Positions 2,209 through 19,800 of a stretch of DNA of 64,000 nt are shown piece after piece. Below the pieces are notes generated by a model. The model searched no databases. It had not been told where the DNA came from and saw nothing but the letters and a program-made list of their open reading frames with translations. The DNA is from Cornus controversa. Lineage: Eukaryota; Streptophyta; Magnoliopsida; Cornales; Cornaceae. Where the stretch lies: the NCBI GenBank assembly GCA_026545225.1, contig CM048846.1, positions 19,208,501-19,272,500 of the forward strand. Reading direction: 5' to 3'. Positions within the stretch are counted from its first letter, which is position 1; every line of letters begins with the position of its first letter. A program made the translations under genes and the position numbers.

Positions 2209-3399
2209 TCTAATGCTTTGTTTGATGGAAATGAATGAAGGAAGAGGCGTGAAAGGAAGATAGAAGAGAAAAAATATTTTTTTTCGTTTGACAGAAAGGA
2301 GGCAAAGAGAGAACGGAAAATAGGGTGGAAGAGGTGGATGGCTCATCCACTCTCTTTCACAAATTTTTATCTCTTTAAATTTAGACGGAAGACAGAAAAG
2401 AAAAAAAATTAAGACTATTAAAAATATTTTGAATTACAAAACTATTCTTATAATTTTTTCATAAACCCAAACAAACAAATAGTGATGGGTATAATAGTAA
2501 AAATAATTTAAAATTCTTTGTTCCTTTCTCCCATAACAAATAAACCCAAACTTGTCTAAATATCAATTACGTATGTAATAACAAAACTTAATTCAAACAA
2601 AATAGTGATATGATTTAAGTCACACCGTTATATAAAGGGAATGACTAAATAAAATTATGTGCAAAACTAGAGAGCAAGAGTCCGCGAACGCATGGTATAC
2701 ACTCATTTAAAAAAAATTACGCAAGTGAAAATATGATATTTTTTTACGAGTTTTAAACCCTTGAAACACACTTTGTTGGTTTTTTCTCTGGACAGAGTAT
2801 CATCAATTGCATGTATACTTTTGAACTAGACAAACTACTTTCTTAACTTTACCTGTCCAAATATATGGGACAAAAATTTAAGGGCCATTTTATCTTCCAA
2901 TATCCACCGCCCTAACCACACAAGGACCCATCTTAATTTCTAAATTAATTACTGATAAATGCCATTTATTTGCCACGTCGGACATTAATTTACAGCTGGA
3001 CCACATCCATAAGTTGACATTGCTTTAATCTACATTTTTCTATTTTTATTTTATTTTTTTTCAATTGGAATATGATGATTGTATCCATTGTCTTGGACTC
3101 CCAAGAAAGAAAAAAAAAATAGTGAAGTCGTTTCCTTTTTATCGCCATCTAGTCTACAGATCCCCTTTCTCTCTCTAGTTTCTCTCTCTACAACACTACC
3201 TTTCTCACCTTTCCTCTGTTTCTCATTGCTTGTTGGGCACACCAGAGACAAATTTGGAGTACAACCCTAGAACAACAAATGTGTCAAACATTTCCACTCA
3301 AATCTAATCAAGTACTCAGCTAATGCTGTAACTGTAGAGCTAGGGTTTCAAATAGGACTGTGTCTTAGAGGAGAGGTGGGTAGGTAAGAGGCAACTACC

Positions 3400-6300
3400 A
3401 TGGGTCTCTGCAGTTCCAAACTCAATGTCTCCGGTGATCATCAACCCGAGACGGGGAACAATCCCATTCCGGCGAAGGACAATGCTAATCCACCCAAGGA
3501 TAGCATAAACCCTCTTGGTGATGCCGAAATCCCCAAAACCCAGCAAGAGCCAGAGGTGGGTAAGAAATCGCCGTTCTTTCCCTTTTACAGTCCGAGTCCG
3601 GCGCATTACTTGTTCTCAAAGAAGTCTCCGGCGAGATCTCCGGCGAATGTGAGCTCGAATTCGACTCCCAAGCGGTTCTTCAAGCGGCCATTCCCTCCGC
3701 CGTCGCCGGCGAAGCACATCAGGGCAGTGTTGGCGAGGCGGCACGGGTCAGTGAAGCCGAACGGAGCGGCAATACCGGAGGGGAACGAGGGGGAGGGCGG
3801 TGTCGCCGGGTTGGATAAGAGTTTTGGGTTTTCGAAGCATTTTGGGAACAAGTATGAGCTCGGAGATGAGGTTGGAAGAGGCCATTTTGGGTATACTTGT
3901 AAGGCAAAGTTTAAGAAGGGTGAGCTTAAGGGACAAGATGTTGCAGTTAAGGTCATCCCAAAAGCGAAGGTTCGAAATTTTCACACTCTTTCTCTCTTTG
4001 ATGTGTGTATGTGTCTGAATTATTGATAAGTCAGGTCAACCATTTGCGTCTAAGCGATTTTGTATTTTTGGGAATCTAGTTTTACCTGATTATCTTGATG
4101 ATACAGAGATCAGATCTGTGACAAAAAATCATTTTTGGTCTTATAAGTGATCATTATTTGATTGAAGCATACTTTAGTCATTTCTTGGTCTCTAATTAGA
4201 ATTTTATGCATTTTTTGACTGCAAGAACTTTCAATATGTGTTTGAATAGTTGCAAATGTGAACTTTTTCAAGCATTTATCCATAAGGTAATTAGAATTGA
4301 TGATCTATGGGTTATGACAAGGAGCTGATCTTAACCTTGATTCAGTGTCTATTAATCAATTATCCATAAGCCGTGGCTGTGATATTCTTTTCCTCTTTGG
4401 ATCCAAGAAAAACTTTCAAGTAATTGGGATTAAGACACTGCTTGCTGACTTGACGTAAGGGAAGCGTCTGCGTATTTCTTCTTCAGTTTTGCTATTTAAA
4501 GATGTTGATAGATTTAAGTTTATATTATAAGATATATTGTTCCCTTCATTTTTTATTGTCAAAAGACAAATCTTGATGACAAACATATCTGTTGCATCTC
4601 TGCCAAAAGGAACTTATGCATTGAACAACTCTTGAGTCTATTTGAGAAAAACGCACATTTTAAGAGAGAAAAAACACATATTGAAAGTTCTGACAGTTCA
4701 AAAATGCATAAAATTCTAATTAGAGACGAAGAAATGACTAAAGTGTGCTTCAATCAAATGGACTTAGATCCTTTCCTATGATTTCTCTCTCCAAGCATCT
4801 CCAAGACATCATCCAAGGGTTATGAAACTGTCACGTCACCATTTTTTTGTACAAGTGATGACGTGGTATCGTCATAACACTTGGATGTTGCATTGTAGAT
4901 GCTTGGCAAGAGAAATCATTGGAGAGGATCCAAAAACCAATCAAATGATGATCACTTTATTGGACCAAAATTGCTCTTGCTGATATAGAGATCAGATCTA
5001 TGAGAAAACATCAACTTTGGTCATATAAAGTGATCATCATTTGATTGAAGCACACTTTAGTCATATTTTCGTCTCTAATTAGAATTTTATGCATTTTTTA
5101 ACTGCAAGAACTTTCAATATGTGTTCGTTTATGATTTTTATGTGTTTGAATAGTTGCAAATGTGAACTTTTCCTAGCATCTATCCATAAGCTAATTAGAA
5201 TTGGTGATCTATGAGTTATGACAAGGAGCTGATCTTAACCTTGATTCAGTTATCCATAAGCAGTGGCTGTGATATTCTTATCCTCTTTGGATCCAAGAAA
5301 AACTTTCAAGTAATTGGGATTAAGACACTGCTGACTTGACATAAGGGGCACCCTTCTTAAACTTTGGCTTACAATATACCCAAAATGGATTCTTCCAACC
5401 TCACCTCCTAGCTCATACTTGATCCCAAAATGTTTCGAAAACCCAAAACTTTATGCTATCCTTGGATGGATTAGCGTTGTCCTTTGCCAGAATGAGATTG
5501 TTCTCCTCTAGACACAATCTATTGAAAACGCTTTGATTTGAGTTACTGAGTAGGAAGGTTTGACACATAATGCTCTAACCGTAGAACTAGGGTTTCAAAT
5601 AGATTGTGTCTAGAGGTGAAGTAGGTAGGTACTAAGAAGCACGGAAACGGATACGACATGACATGGACACGGCGACACAGAAAATCCTAAAAAATTAGGA
5701 CACGGACACAGTGGAGACTCCGCAAATAATAAATATTTATTTTTATATAATATTTGATGTTGTACTTTAAATAATTAAGAGTAATATTATTTTTCATCAA
5801 CCTAACAAAGAAAAAAAATTCACAAATCATAAATCACAAGTACACAATTGAATCTACTCCACAACAACAATAATTATAAGAGAACGATGTCACAAGGTCA
5901 TAAAACCAAATCAAAACGAGACATTAGAATAAAAACTAGTCTTTATCATTTAAACATCATCATTCTAGCTTACTCCAAATAAAAATACATCATCAGAAAG
6001 TCACATGTAAAAGATAATAATTGTACAGTAAGAGAAAAAGAGTAAAAAAGAACAAAGATGAAGAGATGAGATGGGCTATAGTTGAATTGATAAAACAACC
6101 TTTCTAGAACTTGTGTTTTGCTAGGAAAAAGAAAGAAAGAGGCTAAAAAAGGAGAAAGCAGCAAAAACAATTAGGGATTAGTGAAAAGTAAAGTAAGAAT
6201 CCATGGAAGAGAGAAGATTCATGAAAACAAGAGGAAAAAGAAAAAAAAAAATTTGGAGTGTCCGTGCCGTGTCTGAAAATTCAAGCAGTGTTGGACGCGT

Positions 6301-9300
6301 GTCCGCGCCGTGTTCGTGCCATGTCCGCGCCATGTCCGAAAATTCAAAAAAATAAAAAAAAATAAGATACGTTTTTTGTCGTCTCAGACTCGTGTCGGGG
6401 CGTGTCCGACGCGTATCTGTGTCCGACATGGATTCTTTGCCTTTTTAGGCGTGTCCGTGCTTCCTAGGGTAGGTAGGTAACTATCATGGGTCTCTGCAGT
6501 TCCAAACCAAATGTCTCCGGTAATCATCAACCCGGGAAGGAGAACAATCCTATTCTGTCAAAGGACAACGCTAATCCATCCAGGATAGCATAAAGTTTTC
6601 GGTTTTCGAAGCATTTTGGGAACAAGTATGAGCTCGTAGATGAGGTTGGAAGAGGCCGTTTTGGGTATAGTTGTAAGACGAAGTTTAAGAATGGTGAGCT
6701 TAAGGGGCAAGATGTTGCAGTTAAGGTCATCCCAAAAGCAAATGTTCGGCATTTCACACACTCTCTCTCTCCTGATGTGTGTATGTGTCTGAATTATTGA
6801 TAAGTCAGGCCAACCATTTGCGTCTTAGTGATTTTGTATTTTTGGGAATCTAATTTTAGCTGATTGTCTTGATGATACAAAGATTAGAGCTGTGAGAAAA
6901 CATCAATTTTGGTCTTATAAAGTGATCAGTATTTGATTTAAGCACACTATAGTCATTTCTTCATCTCTAATTAGAATTTTATGCATTTTGTAAGTGCAAG
7001 AACTTTCAATATGTGTTCGTTTAAGATTTTTATGTGTTTGACTAGTTGCAAATATGAACTTTTTCAAGCATTTATCCATAAGCTAATCAGAATTGGTGAT
7101 CTATGAGTTATGACAAGGAGCGGATCTTAACCTTGATTCAGTGTGGATTAATCAATTATCCATAAGCTGTGGCTGTGATAATCTTTTCCCCTTTGGATCC
7201 AAGAAAAACTTTCAAGTGATTGGGATTAAGACACTGCTGATTTGACGTAAGGGGTTTTGTTTGCGTCTTTCTTCTTCAGTTTCTGCTATTTGAAGATGTT
7301 GATAGATTTAAATTTATATTATAAGATATATTTTTTTCTTCTTTTTTTATTGTCAATAGAGAAATATGGATAACAAACATATTCCTGTTGCATCTCTGTC
7401 GAAAGGAACTTATGCATTGCATAACTCTTGAGTCTACTTGAGAAAAGCGCACATTTGAAGAGAGAATGGGTGGGGTAGGGTGGTGGTGGTGTTACAGGTC
7501 ATAGGAGTTCAGTTCACTTTTTCATTACATAATTGGCCTCATGGTCGTTGGTTTTGGACCTTTACCCTTTACCTAATAGAAATTTCTTCAAAAGAATAAC
7601 GTTCTGTTAGCTAAATATCAAGGACTTGTCTTAATATTTCGTTTTCAGAAGTATTTACTTTGTTTAGATGTGTTTCTGCAGTGTAAAAATCTTATTGGGC
7701 TTTGGTGAAGCCCATCTGTTCTGTCTCATTAAGACTCAAAGGCATATTTTCTTTTTGTGCTGAAAACTAAATAGTTTTATCGTTGAGGTGCTAAAAATTA
7801 GTCGATTGGCCTCTGTTTCTTGCTGTATCAGAGCAGTAAGGGAGATTTCTCTTGTTTAAGGAGACTGACTGATAGAAAAAAGTAAATTAGAACTGAGGTT
7901 ATCACGAGATTGAGACATGTATTTCTTCTCTGGTATTTGCATTGAGATTGTGTTTAGGTCTGTATTTTAAATGGGTAAGCTTTAATACTTTATACCGAAG
8001 GCCGCGTCTACACAAGACGGTAGATTGATATATGTGTAACTTGCATGTCCAAAGATCTCTAGGGACATTCCTTGTGATAAGATGAGAGATGCTAGAAGAT
8101 TTATGCCAAGGACTACCTAAATTCAACTTCTTTAGTAGCAGGGCGGCAGAACTTTGGCGGTGGCAGGCTTGTGTTAATGGAATTATGGGGAAGTTGTTAA
8201 GTGATTCTATACAAGTGGATGCCGTTCATGGTAATCCCATTATTTGATTATTTATGGACTTTTGCACCAGGAAAAGTAAAATTTGTAAGAATTGAACTGG
8301 TTTGTATTACTGCAGAAGTGCCTACTCTGGTATTCTCGAACCCATAGATTAATTGAATGATTTGAGGGAAACTTTACTCTAAAAATGTTTTGTTGCCTCT
8401 TTGTATTGTATGGGTAATCAGTAATATGTACATTGCATTTAAATAGAGAGACTATACTGGAAAACAAGAGGACAACTGGAAACAGCAAGCAAATGCTCAA
8501 GGCATCATAAGAGTGGAATTTGTTAAGTTATCATATGAGTGGAATTTAGAAGAGATGAAATTTTAGCAAGAAAATGGCATGATAATCGCTTGTTGGAACT
8601 AGGAAATAATCTTTTAGATGATTTTTTAGAATGATTTTGCTAAATCTGGGGAAAGAATCCCTGGAGAATAATATGATCTGTACTAAGTTGCTAGTACTAA
8701 AGGAGAAGCAAAAAAACAACAAAGGAATGGAAGCACGAAATGTGGTTCAAAAAAATTATAAGAAATGGGAAGCATTGGGTGATATGAAATTGATTTGGAA
8801 TATTAATAAGGAACTTTGATAAAATCAATAGGAAACATTAGAAACCTACTAAGTTAAATTAAAATATTAATTTTAGGAAACAATTAGACTTGTCAAAAAT
8901 CTGGTGGAAGTATATTGCATTCTAATTTGTATACCACTCTTCTTATATGTTGTAGAATCTTTAGATTGGTTGTCTATGATCATCATTTGTTTAAGTTTGA
9001 TTTTTGACTCCAAAACACTTATTTTCCTTAAAAAGATTCCATTTCTGTCTCTGGTTGATACATGACAAGCTTTATTTTATATATAATTAGATTTACAGGG
9101 GAACTAATTTCAGAAATACTATCTTTTGGATTGTTTATTGCATCTTATTTGCTAATTTGTGTGTGTGTGTGTGTGTGTGTATATTTCTTTTCCATCTAGA
9201 TGACGACTGCCATAGCCATTGAGGATGTTAGACGGGAGGTGAAAATATTGAGAGCTTTGACAGGACATAGCAATTTAGTACAATTTTATGATGCATATGA

Positions 9301-12300
9301 AGACCATGATAATGTCTACATTGTGATGGAGTAAGTTCTGATCTTGATGCTTGATTTGAATTTTATCCCATTAATATGGATATGTTCCACAACTTTGTTG
9401 GACCTGATTACCTGTGCAACAATAGAATTTGAATCTGTTAGCTGGTTTATGGTAACTAGTATAACTTCTTTGAACTAAATGCCATTATTTCTGTTTAATA
9501 ACTTTATGGAAATAATTTATTTATATTTGTTATTCAAATATAACTCGATATTAGGAGGGTTTCACTGCTCGCTTGTTCTAAAATTTACTTCAAATGGGCT
9601 TTCATGAATTTTGTTGAATTTTGAAGGTTATGTGAAGGTGGGGAGCTTTTGGATAGAATACTTTCAAGGTACATCTGTTTTAGTGCTAGCTATAATGAAA
9701 TACTGTACCTATGAACCTTTTGAATTTAATTGCTATTGGTGGACCAGGAAGATAAACATTTAAAGAGAAGAATTGGTTGGCAATTAATAGCATTTCAAAT
9801 AGTTGTATTTTTTGTAATGCAGGGGTGGGAAATACACAGAAGATGATGCGAAGGCTGTCATGATGCAAATCTTGAATGTTGTTGCATTTTGCCATCTCCA
9901 AGGTGTGGTGCACCGGGATCTTAAGCCGGAGGTGAGAGATAGTTTCAAGTTTGCATTATTTATTGTGTGTTAGATTTATATCTGCTAGCTCACAGGATAG
10001 ATTGAATGTCTGCCTCCCTACTTTTTAGGGCAGGGAAGGATGAGTAGGATAATTTCTTTGTGATGTCTCTTTGAGAGATCTTAATGAGCATTAAATTAGG
10101 ACTGAACTGCTGGGTTGTATGAGTCATACGCAAAAGATGTGTATTCTTCATTAGCAGATTCCATGATATGCAGTCTTCTAAGTTAACAGAATTGCTTTAG
10201 AACATTGAGAACTTAGAATCTCTTCTTTTGCAAATGACAAGTGGGTTATATATATGTATGTCTGTCTAGTGCAAGATTGGTATTGAACTGACATTTAATT
10301 CCCAATTGAAAGGCCTGACCAAATTGGCCAATAACTATCTTGATTCTTGAAGAAATAGAGTGGTTGGTTATTGAAAAAATGATCTGTTCAATAAATGCAT
10401 TTTCTTTTACTGTATGTTGTCTTTACAATCGTCTTTTCTTTTCTATCGTTCTTACCTAACTATAGCTAATTGCTGCATCAGAATTTCTTGTTTATGTCTA
10501 AGGATGAGAACTCACAACTAAAGGCCATAGATTTTGGTTTGTCAGATTTTGTAAAGCCAGGTTTGTCCTTATTTCTTCTATATTTATTTAGTGTTGCAGC
10601 TTTTTGTTTAAATAGCTCTGATAATGAGTTAATTAATTTTTAATGTCTCAAATGGTTTGCAGATGAACGGCTTAATGACATTGTGGGCAGTGCATACTAT
10701 GTAGCACCTGAAGTTCTACATAGATCATACAGCACAGAGGCTGATGTATGGAGTATAGGTGTTATAGCATATATTCTATTGTGTGGCAGCCGTCCATTTT
10801 GGGCTCGAACTGAGTCTGGGATATTTCGTGCTGTTCTAAAAGCTGATCCAAGTTTTGACGAATCACCTTGGCCGTCTCTAACTTCTGAGGGAAAGGACTT
10901 TGTGAAACGCCTATTGAACAAGGACCCACGGAAAAGAATGACTGCTGCTCAAGCCCTAAGTGAGTGTCTCAACTCTCAACCCTGTTAAAGGTGCCGAGTT
11001 TTTTCTTCTAATTATCCTCGAAGTGCCACTTAAAACTCTTTTGTTGCAGGTCATCCATGGATTAAAAATAATAATGACGTAAAAGTGCCCCTGGATATAC
11101 TAATTTTTAAACTCATGAAGGCTTATATGCGTTCATCTTCTCTTCGGAAAGCTGCTTTACGGGTGTGTATATGATGCTGCTTGAAAATGGTGATGTTCTT
11201 TTATTCTCTATTAGTTGTGCCTACGTGAACTTAAGTGGGTATCTGGGTGTTCCTTTTAGACACCACATTCATCTGCAGGTTTATGGGATTCTTGGACTAT
11301 GATCCTATAAAATTGAGCGACAATTTGCAGATGTTCATTTGCATAAAATATTCTTGCCCTTTTATGTTTAAGGGAACTACTTAATCCAATTGAATACAAG
11401 ATAATAAAAATAAAACATATGATGAGTGCTTGTTCAATAGGCAATAGACGAGAAATGAAGCTTAGCCAGGCTGCATTAGAAAGAGGTTTGAGCTCGTGTT
11501 CAAGATCGCTTTGGCCCATTCATGAACTTATGAACTAACTTCATGAACGTATACAAGGCTATGTTCATGAATGGGTCCATGAACACAGACGCTACACGAC
11601 TGAGCCTAAAAATGTCCGGGATTGGCTTGTTTACTAAACAAGCTAAAAAATTGAGCTTGAGTTCTGATCGTTTACTGAATCAACAAGCTCGAGCTGAGCT
11701 TTAAACAAGTTGATCCCAATCTGTTCATGAACAACTGTGGTTCATTTGCAGCCCTACTCGTGAGTGCTGCTTCTATTGTGGTATAGGATAAAAACTATAC
11801 GTAAACAACTGAGGCTGTCACTGGAACCAATTTCCTGAAAAATGATTTTTGATTGGCCTTATGGTTCATTTAGTAATTTTCTTGAGAATCAAGAGAGTTT
11901 GATGTACATTTTAGTTTGAGATAATTGTTGAATTGATTCCTTGAAAACTGGGCATCAAATGCTTTTTTGGAAGTTATTAGGGTGTGTGTAGTAACCCTTG
12001 TGGACGGGTGTGAGTGGGCGGGTGCATAGACAAACACTGGGCTGAGCTACCACACTGACAGGGTACAGGGTGCTCAATCCCACATCGCCTGGGTGTGGAA
12101 AAGGGGATGTGCTTATATGTAGTATGTTCTCTTCAAATGGTATGAGGCCTTTTGGGGTAAACCCAAGAGCAAAACCGTGCGGGCTTAGGCCCAAAGCGGA
12201 CAATATCATACCATGTGTTGGAGCGGGGTATTACAATTGGTATCAGAGCCTGAACCCAGCCGGAAGTAAGTGTGCCGACGAGGGCGTCGGGCCTCGTAGG

Positions 12301-14547
12301 GGGGTGGATTGTAGTAACCCTTGTGGACGGGTGTGAGTGGGCGGGTGCATAGACAAACACTGGGCTGAGCTACCACACTGACAGGGTACAGGGTGCTCAA
12401 TCCCACATCGCCTGGGTGTGGAAAAGGGGATGTGCTTATATGTAGTATGTTCTCTTCAAATGGTATGAGGCCTTTTGGGGTAAACCCAAGAGCAAAACCG
12501 TGCGGGCTTAGGCCCAAAGCGGACAATATCATACCATGTGTTGGAGCGGGGTATTACAGTGTGTTTTGGAATGACATTTCAAGAATGATTTCTTTGTGAT
12601 TGTTATCACATCATTTTCTTCAACTTATATTTAGGCTCCCTTTGTTTCGACGTAAAATATTATCTGGAAAATATTTCTAAAAAAATTCGGTGTTTGATTG
12701 CGTATTTTAAAAGGAAAAATATTATACCCATAAAACATTTTCACACCAAAATGTTTGGATTGATGCAACCAATCTGTAAAATATTGAATAGCTAGCTTGG
12801 TTGATGCTACCGAACACCGGAAATTTTCAGAAAATATTTTACGTCGAAACAAACGGAGCCTTAAGACAAAATTTTGATCAAATTTTATTTTTCTAAGATA
12901 GGAAATTATATTTGCTTCCACTTTTAAGTTGCCTAGGTGATGGAGAATGAGATGCGATTCGAAAGCATGAGCCGCATGTGATTCACCTCTACTTTCGGAG
13001 AGTGTCAGAAAAATAAATAAAATTAGTGTTAAATATTTATGTTTTTTTATTTTGGAATATCTAATTTAGGGTTATTTTAATTATTTATCATTTTAGGGCT
13101 TATTTGGTAGTAGAGTTTGATTAGGGTTTATTTCACTACCTAGATATATATACAGGGCTTCATACATTGAGTTGGATGGCTTTGATGATTATTGAATATT
13201 ATGATTGATTCGAGAGATTTCTTTCCCATATTTCTTCTCCTCCTCCCTAATTCTTCTTTTCTCTTCACTCTTTTCTACTGTCTTCCGCGTCCTCCATCAC
13301 AAGGTCTCTTCATTTAGGTGATTTACTTACAAAGATGAGTCACTTAGTAGCGAGGATATTTTTCTCTACGATGCTTCTCTCTCAAATTCTACCTTTCCTT
13401 GTTTCTCTGCATTTATATTGTCTAATATTTATACAAATAATGTAAAAGGAGTCACTCTTTCAATAGCACTCTTAATCTGCAGAATGCTAGAAGAGTTCTT
13501 TGATTATTAAGGGTTTAAAATGTTGCCACACGGTCCTGAAGTATTACCATAAGAATTTTATGGAAGTGATCTGAAAGCATACATATTCCGATTAGGCCAT
13601 TAGATAATTCCAGTGACTATTAGAAGTTATTCTTTCATAAAGTCAGTCCCGAACACAGTTTTTGGTAATTTTTGCTATGCATCTTCTTGGTTTGGTTTCC
13701 TTTTTGATCTCTTACGTTATTGGCATACACATTGTAGTAGTTTATTTACCATTTTTCTTTCTATTGGCATTTGGCAGGCTTTGTCTAAAACATTAACAGT
13801 AGATGAGCTGTTTTATTTGAAAGAGCAGTTTGCCTTATTGGAACCAAACAAAAATGGCGCCATAAGCTTGGAAAATATTAAAGCGGTTGGTTTATTGCAG
13901 AATATTAAAATTTCATTATTATGTTTTATTTGAATGTTACTCTCAACAGTTTTGACTGGTCAGGCCTTGACGAAAAATGCAACGGACGCTATGAAGGAAT
14001 CTCGTATTCATGATTTTCTAGCATCAGTATGTGCTTTGACCATTATGCTAGACATGAGTGTTTCATGGTGTTATGGCATTTGAGTGGTAAACCATTTTCT
14101 CTTGTTCTGTAACAGCTTAATGCACTTCAATACAGAAGAATGGATTTTGAGGAATTCTGTGCCGCTTCACTAAGTGTCTATCAGCTTGAGGCTCTTGATC
14201 GATGGGAGCAACATGCTCGTTGTGCCTACGAACTTTTTGAGAAGGATGGAAATAGGGCTATTGTCATCGATGAGCTGGCTTCTGTAAGTTGATTCTTGTT
14301 CCTAGGCAATAAAGAAATATTCACCTTTAGTTGAATTTGTCACGTCAAGCAACACGAACATAGACCGATGAGACTGATTTACAATATTTTGGGAATATTA
14401 TTCCAGGAACTAGGCCTTAGCCCATCTGTCCCTGTTCATGCTGTTCTCCATGACTGGATTAGGCACACAGACGGGAAGCTGAGTTTCCTTGGGTTTGTCA
14501 AATTATTGCATGGTGTGTCTAGCCGGTCCCTTGTAAAAACACAATGA
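3400..14547 (+). CDS. CRK: CDPK-related protein kinase (CRK family), 11 exons
   Basis: Exons: 3400-3969, 9200-9330, 9627-9668, 9823-9931, 10482-10560, 10663-10959, 11050-11162, 13778-13885, 13964-14026, 14116-14283, 14407-14547; 1,821 nt, 606 aa. All introns inferred are GT-AG and all phases close. The start MGLCSSK in an ACCATGGG context gives an N-myristoylation Gly2 and a likely palmitoylated Cys4, so plasma-membrane attachment is expected. A Ser/Pro-rich N-terminal region precedes the kinase domain (about 152-414): glycine loop GRGHFG at 159-164, Lys184, HRDLKPE with Asp280, DFG at 301-303, GSAYYVAPE activation segment. The C-terminal part matches the CRK regulatory region, with degenerate EF-hands that are not expected to bind calcium well (family knowledge). 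CRKs are Ser/Thr kinases linked to calmodulin. Closely resembles Arabidopsis CRK proteins; the exact orthologue is not assigned. Intron 1 (5,230 bp) is unusual and is described separately. Confidence 0.95.
4103..5350. repeat. Direct and inverted copies of kinase intron-1 sequence
   Basis: The intron-1 segment around 4103-4470 (containing AGAGATCAGATCTGTGA and ACAAGGAGCTGATCTTAACC) recurs in direct orientation at about 4980-5345 and again at about 6874-7250. Its start is also present in reverse orientation at about 4670-4759 and 4938-4970. The inverted piece lies head to head with the 4980 copy, giving a foldback centred near 4972. A Mutator-like MITE later split the inverted arm. The copies include intron sequence, so they came from genomic DNA, not from a spliced transcript. 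Confidence 0.85.
4760..4937. mobile_element. Mutator-like palindromic MITE with 9-bp target duplication
   Basis: The 178-bp element is flanked by a perfect 9-bp direct repeat CAATCAAAT (4751-4759 and 4938-4946). Its ends are inverted repeats carrying GATCCTYTCC and then TGATTTCTCT..CCAAGCATCT, and most of the element can pair with itself. It codes for nothing. The 9-bp duplication points to the Mutator superfamily. It sits inside the inverted copy of intron-1 sequence, so it inserted after that rearrangement. Confidence 0.85.
5348..5579 (-). pseudogene. Inverted, deleted copy of kinase exon 1 and 5' UTR
   Basis: Read on the minus strand, this piece matches kinase 5' UTR and exon 1 (about 3457-3510 joined to about 3822-3920), roughly nine bases in ten identical by eye over the kinase-domain part. 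It lacks the start-codon segment. It also lacks about 310 bp of exon 1, the Ser/Pro-rich region. The + strand copy at 6468-6750 has the same internal deletion, so the two copies share an ancestor after the deletion. It lies in intron 1, antisense to the transcript. Confidence 0.85.
5580..7480 (+). pseudogene. Direct, deleted copy of kinase exon 1 plus intron-1 start
   Basis: This copy contains 5' UTR (5580-5631), then a hAT-like insertion, then exon 1 from an ATG at 6486 (MGLCSSK retained). The same internal deletion as in the inverted copy removes the Ser/Pro-rich part and brings a stop about 36 codons after the ATG. The kinase-start segment (NKYEL to VAVKVIPKA) follows at about 6600-6735, then intron-1-like sequence to about 7480. 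It is not part of the inferred mRNA. It could act as a cryptic exon, but the stop makes a useful protein unlikely. Confidence 0.85.
5632..6467. mobile_element. Non-autonomous hAT-like element, 836 bp, GAAGCACGGA ends
   Basis: Perfect 8-bp direct repeats GGTAGGTA (5624-5631 and 6468-6475) flank the element. The left end is CTAAGAAGCACGGAAACG and the reverse complement of the right end is CTAGGAAGCACGGACACG. The 8-bp duplication fits the hAT superfamily. No transposase is visible. The original kinase 5' UTR at about 3375-3385 has no insertion, which supports the boundaries. A relative with the same ends is at 43260-43712. Confidence 0.85.
11470..11765. mobile_element. Degenerate transposon relic (possible hAT type)
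   Basis: The right edge (GGTTCATTTGCAGCCCT) and the interior repeats GTTCATGAA and AAGCTCGAGC look like plant non-autonomous elements with AGGGCTGCAAATG ends. The left end is not recognisable. It lies in kinase intron 7. Confidence 0.35.
11987..12558 (+). mobile_element. TRIM: complete miniature LTR retrotransposon
   Basis: Two 249-bp LTRs (11987-12235 and 12310-12558) begin TGTAGTAACCC, end GGTATTACA and look identical base for base. A primer-binding site TTGGTATCAGAGCC, complementary to initiator methionine tRNA, follows the first LTR. A purine-rich tract (about 12297-12308) precedes the second. The internal region is only 74 bp and codes for nothing. A 5-bp target duplication GTGTG lies on both sides (11982-11986 and 12559-12563). 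The element looks whole, and the LTR identity implies a young insertion. It is non-autonomous, so its enzymes came from another element. It sits in kinase intron 7 in sense orientation. Confidence 0.95.
12634..12860. mobile_element. Tourist-like MITE, TTA target duplication
   Basis: TTA flanks both sides (12631-12633 and 12861-12863). The ends GGCTCCCTTTGTTTCGACGT and, in reverse complement, GGCTCCGTTTGTTTCGACGT extend as an inverted repeat for about 40 bp. The 227-bp interior has no gene. This is the usual form of a PIF/Harbinger-derived MITE. It is in kinase intron 7, just downstream of the TRIM. Confidence 0.85.
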
Positions 14548-16815: not shown

Positions 16816-19800
16816 ATGTCTGATAGAAAAGGTAAGAAACGCAATTTTATTACAATCTCTTCGTCCTCTGAAGAAGAAGAAGCTGAACAGAGCCAAGAAC
16901 AATCAGAATCAGAAGACGATGACGATGACGAAGATGAAGAGTATGATATGTCTATTATATGTATTTATACATGTATCAAAACATGATGCACACTACTGCG
17001 ATTTTTATGCTGATTTCAATTCTTGTGTTTTGGTCAGTGATAGTGATGATGATGATGATGATGAGGTTTCGAGTGAGTGGAGTGATGACAAAGTGGATAA
17101 ATCGGATGATGAGGATTCTTCTGATCCCGAGGACGATGAGTCTCGCGGCAATAGAGTCATCAGTTCGTCCGATGAGGATTCTTCTGATCCTGAGGACGAT
17201 GAGTCTCGCGGCAATAGAGTCATCAGTTTCCTCCAAGGTCAGGATCTTCTTTCGTGATTCATGAACTCTCCGAAATTGCTTAGTTCAGCTAATTTGTTTC
17301 CTTGAAATATACAGCCTCTATAACCACACACACACACACATATATATATATGTAACACAAGATTTTCCACAATAATGCCTAACTTAGTATCATTTCCAGG
17401 GAAATTAGATTAAATATCCAAATATTCAGACATACATAAATGCATATAAAATACACACTCATTCTTAAATTTCCCTGGAAATGATATTTAATCTAATTTC
17501 CTTGGAAATGATACTAAGTTAGGCATTATTGTGGAAAATCTTGTGTTACATAGTTACATTCACCTCTAGAAGCTGACTTGTATTATTTTGTACTATTGGT
17601 TATGTAAATGCAATGGATAGATATGAGCGCTTTCTTAAATTTGTTGAAAGACTTGTGTAAGTTGGTATATTTGACAGTTGGTACTTGTAGATGTAAATGT
17701 AGCTTGATGGCATAGGATACCGAAGGCATCTTCATCTAGATTTTAGTCTCTAAACCAGGGCATCCATGAAAGAAAGAATGTTACTGCCAAAGTAGCATTA
17801 GAATGTTGAAAATTTTCCTGACATCATTTTGCAGTGACCATGTTCTTTTTACTGTGAAGAGCAATATTATGTTTAAAGTTTAAACTTTGTTTGTGATGTC
17901 CAATATATATATATATGATTGAATAAGAGGTGTTTTTGGAACTATTTAATTTACAGAACACTTGTGTATCATGATAATCATATTTTTGTTGTTTTATAAG
18001 GCCTTGTAGCTGAACACTGGAAGCCATTGCCCTGTGTTTATCAAAACAAGTACCTGTGATATTTCCCGATGTTTTTTATTTTGTGCAGAAAGTAATGATC
18101 TACAAGATCTAAATCTTAAAGATTGCAAAGCTTATCTACGTAAGTATGGACTGAGAATAACAGGGACCAAGGCAGAATGTATACAGCGAATCAAGGAGCA
18201 CTGGAGGTGAGTTGTTTCATACATGAATATTGCTTAATTTCTTCTCTACTTATATGGTTTGTCTGAGTTTTTGCAGTTCTAGTCGTCATTCATCAATTAT
18301 ATTTCAATCTGGATATAATACTTCTATGTGGAAAGGTTATTCTTTGAGGGAGTGATATATAGTAAAGAAAAAAACCTCATCTGTCTCATATCTTATTACC
18401 TGCAGATAACAAATGAAACCCCAAGATTATATAAATTTAAATAATTGTATAAATATAATATAAAATATCATTCTCCCAGGAAAAAAATTAAAAGAGAAAT
18501 CAGTGGATCGGGAATCAGCCTGTTTTGACCTGCCAATTCTTACTTTACATATAATATAACTTCTGGGGTACCTGTTTCCAACCTGTTTTGACCCACATAT
18601 AAGCTGGTTTATCTTAAGTAATCTGATTTGATCCAAATATCATAATAAGTTAATCCAAACCCATTTATTTATGGCAGGTTTGGTGGGTTGACAGGTTTGA
18701 CTTTGATTTGCCACCCTTAGAAAGTTACCTACTTACCTTGATCCTGTAAAATTATATAGTTCCCATCCGCAATTTGTTGTGGTTCATGTGTGAAGATTTT
18801 TATATGGTAGTGCGCTTTAACAGTTACTAAGAGCACCTATATAGAGTGGGAAACATGCTTGAATTAGAAGATGCTTCACTTTATTTAGTGAAGAATGCTT
18901 TGGAACAATTTTCTTTGATTTTCATTCTTCTACTTGTCTATTTTTTAAGTTCTCATATATCAAATGTTAAAGACACATTCAAGAAGTGTCCTTCAATAGT
19001 TAATATCTATATGTACGTAGCAAAAACGTCTCTCTCTCTATATATATAGATATGCATATATCTTTTAATAAGATCACTTCCTAATTTTGTGGAATCATTC
19101 TTGCTCTAGAAAGTATGAAATTACCTGTAACATGATGATATAATTCTGTTTTTTTTTCTTGCTTCTTATTGTATTCTTATAATACATTTTCTCACCGCAC
19201 TTCTTAATGCATATAATTGGTTATTTATTTATCCTATGAATTTAATAGAGTTATTTGGATTTTTCTTGTTTAGTTATTGGTTTCTCTTTATATGTGCCCC
19301 CCCACCCACACACATACTTATACTTATTCTGGACCTTCAATCTCTACATTTTGTCTGGCATACCATCATGTTTTTAGAATGCCATTATCCAGTGCTAGTA
19401 CTGCATACATGGTTGGCATTATTTTGCACAAAGTAGCTGATCTCTGACTCAAATATACATCTTCGCACTTGTCAACCTAAACTTTTATCATTGCACCAAG
19501 TCATGATCCTTAACCATGTTATATTTGTGTAGGATATTAAGTTTATAAAAAATGTCATTTCATTCTTGATTTCTCTTAGTTAGTTCCAATCACATCAAAT
19601 CCTTCTTGTCAAAATCTTTGAGTATTATTTGTAACGACCCAAATCTTATAATTCTTATCTCAAAATTAATGAATCATACTAAAATTCTGGGCTATTTGTA
19701 ATCTTCTACTCTTTGTGAAGTCTAGTAGTCGCTATCGATTTCAGTTGGGAGTTTGAGGTTAATTTTTGGAACTAAGTTTTTCGTTATTTACATGTAATAT

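Follow-up and report, generated by a model that had tools for sequence, protein, structure and literature searches.

How does a gene come to carry inverted copies of its own first exon within its first intron, and do such copies act on the gene that holds them? These questions are raised by a protein kinase gene of Cornus controversa found in a stretch of 64,000 nucleotides (the window; assembly GCA_026545225.1, contig CM048846.1), located at contig C2:19208501-19272500, a large contig of a 772-Mb genome assembled in 61 contigs. The original prediction described two head-to-head copies of exon 1 and the 5' untranslated region (5'UTR) in intron 1 and read them as a possible self-silencing device or early stage of a microRNA (MIRNA) gene. 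Our analysis shows that these copies are part of a larger block, which probably arose within the intron through local copying by fold-back or template switching.

Self-BLAST of positions 2401-8000 revealed in intron 1 a block of about 2.8 kb (4672-7466), consisting of local copies of the 5'UTR, exon 1 and early intron in the orientations -, +, -, + and followed by unique intron sequence (Table 1; copies are designated C1 to C4 and their source X, while contigs are always named as such). How the pieces are ordered, oriented and joined is read directly from the alignments: the block is a zigzag of two foldbacks, with approximately 35-40 bp skipped or overlapped at each of the two U-turns. The first foldback, upstream of the exon copies, is composed of intron sequence (C4 in minus and C3 in plus orientation) and is split by a miniature inverted-repeat transposable element (MITE), whereas the second is formed by the head-to-head exon copies C1 and C2. 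As a whole, C2 is a plus copy of X 3321-4670 that spans 5570-7466 and is split by a hAT-type element. The minus copy matched exon 1 at 3815-3922 (5349-5454; 91.7% identity, E 1e-37) and 3453-3509 (5450-5506; 89.5%, E 2e-16), and the plus copy matched 3321-3386 (5568-5631; 86.4%), 3378-3509 (6467-6594; 86.4%) and 3815-4670 (6590-7466; 87.9%), while the two arms matched each other (5349-5507 and 6538-6696; 89.4%, E 6e-55). The predicted head-to-head arrangement is thus borne out far beyond chance by alignment of both copies with exon 1, at 86.4-91.7% identity. Chance similarity was rejected by arm-versus-arm E values down to 6e-55, and a processed retrocopy because the copies contain intron sequence. 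Beyond what had been described, C2 extends as far as 7466 and so includes approximately 700 bp of intron, C1 contains 5'UTR sequence up to ~5569 and has an additional deletion of its own, and the C4/C3 foldback is present.

Table 1. Features of the kinase gene and of the repeat block in its first intron (positions in the window).
Feature	Positions	Strand	Description
Protein kinase gene	~3400-14544		Based on Pfam and structure matches at 10668-10985
True exon 1, coding part	3400-3969	+	190 aa, ending ..VIPKAK; donor GT at 3970; open frame, paralogues align across
Intron 1	3970-9199	+	5,230 bp; GT at 3970, AG before 9200; putative splice sites
Exon 2 start	9200	+	Begins ATGACGACTGCC; open frame 9200-9331
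Template segment X (copy source)	3283-4671 (approx.)	+	5'UTR, exon 1 and first ~700 bp of intron 1
Copy C4, first part	4672-4760	-	Inverted X 4156-4243; 93% identical to X, 94% to C3
MITE	4761-4937		177 bp; inside C4; long terminal inverted repeats
Copy C4, remainder past the MITE target duplication	4948-4978	-	C4 as a whole corresponds to X 4243-4127
Copy C3	4975-5347	+	Direct copy of X 4093-4461, 84% including gaps
Copy C1	5349-5569	-	Inverted exon 1 and 5'UTR, X 3922 down to ~3283; two deletions (311 bp, ~80 bp)
Copy C2, 5'UTR part	5570-5631	+	X 3321-3386
hAT-type non-autonomous element	5632-6467		836 bp; splits C2; ends CTAAGAAGCACGGA / TCCGTGCTTCCTAG
Copy C2, exon-1 part	6468-6750	+	Carries the 311-bp deletion
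Copy C2, intron part	6751-7466	+	X 3970-4670

The internal deletion that both exon copies were said to share is present in C1 and C2 with a base-exact common junction (GCATAA|AGTTTT); it covers 3509-3819 and takes out approximately residues 37-140 of the 190 encoded by exon 1. The extra deletion of C1 has removed the start-codon region, while the exon part of C2 retains a 35-codon frame (MGLCSS..) running from 6486 to a stop, and its donor place has changed from AAG|GT to AAT|GT. Since the deletion junction is identical in both, C1 and C2 would have had a common ancestor younger than their split from exon 1; this tie rests on the common deletion, not on substitutions. In the exon part (157 sites) 5 substitutions were unique to X, 7 to C1 and 7 to C2, with all three different at 1 site; the corresponding numbers in the intron part (351 sites) were 9 for X, 13 for C3, 17 for C2, and 1. 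The substitutions were evenly distributed (chi-square p 0.81 and 0.29 for the exon and intron parts, respectively), the copies differing at 8.3-9.6% of sites in the exon part and 6.6-8.8% in the intron part. The arms differ from each other at 15/157 sites, compared with 13/157 for each arm against the exon. C2 and C3 also differ alike from X by two indels, one of 21-22 bp and one of 4 bp, which may have occurred either in the copies or in X. At the five sites where C1 equals C2 against X, the closest paralogue sides with X at 3470 and 3474 and with the copies at 3455 and 3483, which lie in a poorly conserved stretch, while 3493 gives no clear answer; these are single sites read from an alignment of X, C1, C2 and the paralogue in which the 5'UTR portion of C1 is misplaced.

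The copies decay freely. In both C1 and C2, 5 of the 7 private substitutions alter an amino acid (10/14 in total), the glycine loop included. Of the 15 arm-arm differences 10 disrupt base pairing, among them every one of the 8 transversions, and a G:U pair survives at 5 of the 7 transitions (p 0.45). Hence no excess of pair-preserving changes between the arms was observed, and neither coding capacity nor pairing shows signs of being selected in the copies, the numbers being small.

Comparison with the rest of the genome suggests that the block is local and derived. In a genome match search that skipped very common words and scored the best candidates, all four matches of the minus exon copy, and all four of the 702-bp copied intron segment, fell at the kinase locus, none outside. 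Exon 1 has six paralogues, each with one uninterrupted match covering at least residues 64-190 of 190; because all six match uninterrupted across these residues, the paralogues hold the deleted region. Three of the six (on contigs C1, C8 and C4) were fetched for comparison, those on contigs C7, C9 and C6 being left out. The closest one (contig C1:115509495-115510067; 82% identity over 190 residues) has an open, uninterrupted exon 1; its first intron measures ~3,044 bp (exon 2 at 5051 of the reversed locus L025), showed no internal repeats at E 1e-8 and lacks the block. Since that intron is free of repeats, the block appears to be derived and to postdate the divergence of the two genes. In the more distant paralogues on contigs C8 and C4 the exon occurs once, with no repeats within intron 1. 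Of three short intron matches to the closest paralogue, those at 4244-4275 and 8897-9017 lie in collinear order on either side of the block, and the one at 8130-8191 is inverted. The first of them is a 32-bp stretch, 94% identical to the paralogous intron 1 in surroundings that are not alignable and retained in C2 and C3; it is possibly a conserved intron element. Repeats of other kinds occur elsewhere in the distant paralogues: direct repeats of ~200 and ~50 bp, with 90-96% identity, in one of the later introns of the contig-C4 paralogue (L027, 2540-3315), and a 413-bp direct repeat, 88% identical, 3' of exon 2 in the contig-C8 paralogue (L026, 4172-5904).

Both transposons were inserted after the copying. 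The element splitting C2 has terminal inverted repeats, a duplicated 8-bp target site (GGTAGGTA; positions 5624-5631 and 6468-6475) and multiple copies, as is characteristic of hAT elements; its relatives are many in the genome, with 83-91% identity over long matches among the best 40 of 1905 candidates. Across 10 loci, the window copy included, the 8-bp duplication was exact at four (the window copy, L010, L012 and L013) and had one mismatch at L011, the other five not being readable at both ends. The MITE is flanked by a 9-10-bp target duplication (CAATCAAATG, at 4751-4760 and 4938-4947), from the length of which we take it to be Mutator-like; 43 matching pieces were found in the genome, two of which are the element at 4761-4937 itself.

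Locally templated pieces, alternating orientation and short spacers at the U-turns are the features of fold-back/template-switch products, and the block probably originated by such synthesis in one or two events. In the simplest history, X (5'UTR, exon 1 and intron start) would have been copied beside itself as a direct copy, which then would have lost 311 bp; inverted pieces would next have been laid down in a zigzag with two U-turns of ~35-40 bp, and the MITE and hAT would have jumped in last. Alternatively, all pieces may stem from one event, with later exchange between the copies. The junctions show 0-4 nt of microhomology, judged by eye and without a chance control. Several points weigh against an origin by such synthesis with no consequence for the gene: this microhomology proves no single pathway, the substitutions by themselves do not group C1 with C2, the selection tests rest on small samples, and at 7-10% divergence the block is still recognisable and foldable (z -23.3).

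The block is presumably transcribed and removed together with the intron and probably has no selected function; RNA folding bears on what it might do. The region 5300-6800 was predicted to fold at -510 kcal/mol, compared with -338 +/- 7 for 24 dinucleotide shuffles (z -23.3), and 4600-5300 at -290 against -151 +/- 7 (z -19.9), while a control stretch of intron 1 (7500-9000) gave z +0.5, with the same number of shuffles in each case. The earlier expectation that the intron copies could fold into a hairpin is therefore supported by prediction. It had also been suggested that the hAT insertion weakened the hairpin. This holds mainly for the size of the loop: the hAT lies towards the apex, and when 5300-6800 is folded alone with the element in place, the 159-nt lower stem is retained in the prediction, with 146 of the 159 nt in its C1 arm paired to C2. 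The partner of C1 depends on whether exon 1 is included. In minimum-energy folds with exon 1 (3260-7500 and six versions truncated at the 3' side, with ends between 5600 and 7500) the true exon 1/5'UTR takes up 202 nt of C1, and C2 takes up 4-7 nt; with exon 1 omitted, 171 nt of C1 pair with C2, so that the two arms can form the long stable stem of a hairpin RNA (hpRNA) or small interfering RNA (siRNA) locus. The pairing partner of C1 is not firm because the duplex energies are close (-234 kcal/mol for C1/exon 1 vs -251 to -254 for C1/C2). A known RNA family was rejected, as no Rfam family reached its gathering score anywhere in the window; a new family is possible.

C1 is the sole antisense copy of the exon. 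None of its 211 windows of 21 nt matched the true exon 1/5'UTR exactly, while 23 had one mismatch, 50 two, and 33 three; the longest exact run was 18 nt. By a rough plant-type target score (simple shuffle, every fifth window sampled), 18/211 windows scored <=1 and 51/211 scored <=2, the latter having a near-complementary target site of the kind required of a MIRNA gene, and the best score among 20 shuffled versions of C1 was 5.5. Such sites follow from common descent and hence are no evidence of targeting. Near-complementary C1 guides could exist, exact ones could not; exact 21-nt windows to exon 1 occur in C2 (31/326), in the sense orientation. No C1 window had <=2 mismatches to exon 1 of the closest paralogue. 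Small RNAs from the arms that match the mature messenger, as originally envisaged, are thus not to be expected as exact antisense species, and self-silencing or an early MIRNA state found no support, given that C1 pairs with the true exon in the folds that include it and that no sign of conserved arm pairing was seen.

Among the functional explanations, that of a sirtron-like intron, in which hairpins of the excised or nascent intron are cut mainly to 24-nt siRNAs that methylate the intron and perhaps exon 1, is a tentative possibility. Sirtrons are siRNA-rich introns (a term used in PMC5260113), and the kinase intron resembles them by its predicted self-complementary fold and by the intronic location of the repeat. 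Both foldbacks are far more stable than their shuffles whereas the control stretch is not, C1 turns to C2 once exon 1 is omitted, and in maize short genic hairpins are mostly intronic, and CHH methylation is raised at genic hairpins (PMC10760457); on the other hand, the arms are just 89% alike, the loop is ~1 kb long, and Rfam had nothing to offer in the window. This reading is compatible with an accidental origin of the block. A device in which C1 gives rise to siRNAs or a miRNA that direct the cutting of the gene's own mature messenger is unlikely. It could draw on the near-complementary windows, on the lack of such sites in the closest paralogue, which would make the action gene-specific, and on inverted duplication of protein-coding genes as a documented route to young MIRNA genes (PMC1790633, PMC3237417), but there are no exact C1 windows, the copy that has them is sense, pairing of the arms shows no sign of being kept, and selection would act against siRNAs that cut the message of their own gene, unless these were of use.

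The preference of C1 for exon 1 in the minimum-energy folds, the closeness of the two duplex energies and the transcription of C1 ahead of C2 could point to a cis-antisense clamp, whereby C1 lying on exon 1 in the unspliced transcript would influence how this RNA is spliced, kept in the nucleus or cut before splicing. However, 4-kb long-range folds are unreliable and ignore proteins and splicing, and the nearest paired exon position is 3922, which leaves the donor at 3970 free; we consider the clamp improbable. Its extension to a splicing-timed, gene-specific brake, in which unspliced or slowly spliced RNA made double-stranded through C1/exon 1 would be cut, while prompt splicing would release the intron and let C1 re-pair with C2, is rather more doubtful. 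A similarly slim chance is given to C2 being a cassette (poison) exon or an alternative first exon: it has kept a start codon, its short frame to a stop and a GT at the donor place, but the G at donor position -1 is lost, the coding content is decaying, and there is no copied promoter because nothing upstream of ~3283 was copied. Finally, repeats of this type can be misassembled, but an assembly artefact is extremely unlikely because the copies differ at 6.6-9.6% of sites; moreover, they have independent indels, two different transposons with target duplications lie inside them, and the contig is of chromosome size. We thus return to local fold-back/template-switching synthesis, after which the exon copies appear to decay without effect. 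The likeliest effect, if any, would be incidental: the excised intron would fold and feed a little siRNA, probably of 24 nt, which would methylate the intron.

The host gene was recognised by a Pkinase match in Pfam at 10668-10985 (E 4e-23), and among solved structures this stretch best matched a calcium-dependent protein kinase 3 chain (E 3e-32); exon 1 alone matched no Pfam family. The gene may encode a CDPK-related kinase (CRK), as it was labelled in the original prediction. Other repeats were observed in and around the gene: a 249-bp stretch directly repeated with 100% identity in an intron further downstream (11987-12235 and 12310-12558); two 97-bp units in tandem, 99% identical, ~1.2 kb 5' of the start codon (2014-2210); and ~1.9 copies of a 63-bp unit, with 98% match, within an acidic Asp/Ser-rich open frame (17108-17228).

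The nearest described parallel is provided by the male-specific inverted partial ARR17 copies of Populus (PMC9636151), which lie in a sex-linked region and act on a distant gene, and for which both 24-nt siRNAs and methylation of the promoter were observed. Like them, the kinase block consists of first-exon fragments arranged as an inverted repeat, with coding decay and RNA predicted to form a hairpin; unlike them, it resides within an intron of its own gene. With young inverted-duplication MIRNA loci (PMC1790633, PMC3237417) it shares head-to-head gene copies and long similarity to the parent beyond any miRNA site, but it is no independent transcription unit, and its arms are long and ~1 kb apart. 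Inverted copies with short spacers and extra templated pieces are shared with the fold-back/template-switch inverted duplications described in PMC3907307 and PMC11724301, and short homologies at the junctions may be a further parallel; from these duplications the block differs in that its pieces are of ~100-900 bp, old and in a plant intron, the pathway being deduced from the end product. Among the papers listed by searches of the open-licence literature of PubMed Central there was no report of this kinase gene, or of an intron with inverted copies of its own exon, which is not proof of absence.

The block is a well-preserved record of a gene gaining inverted copies of its own exon via local copying, and copies of this kind have been proposed as the starting material of young MIRNA loci. 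If small RNAs arise from it, the intron would be a natural intron-hairpin RNA interference construct against its own host gene, in an early state.

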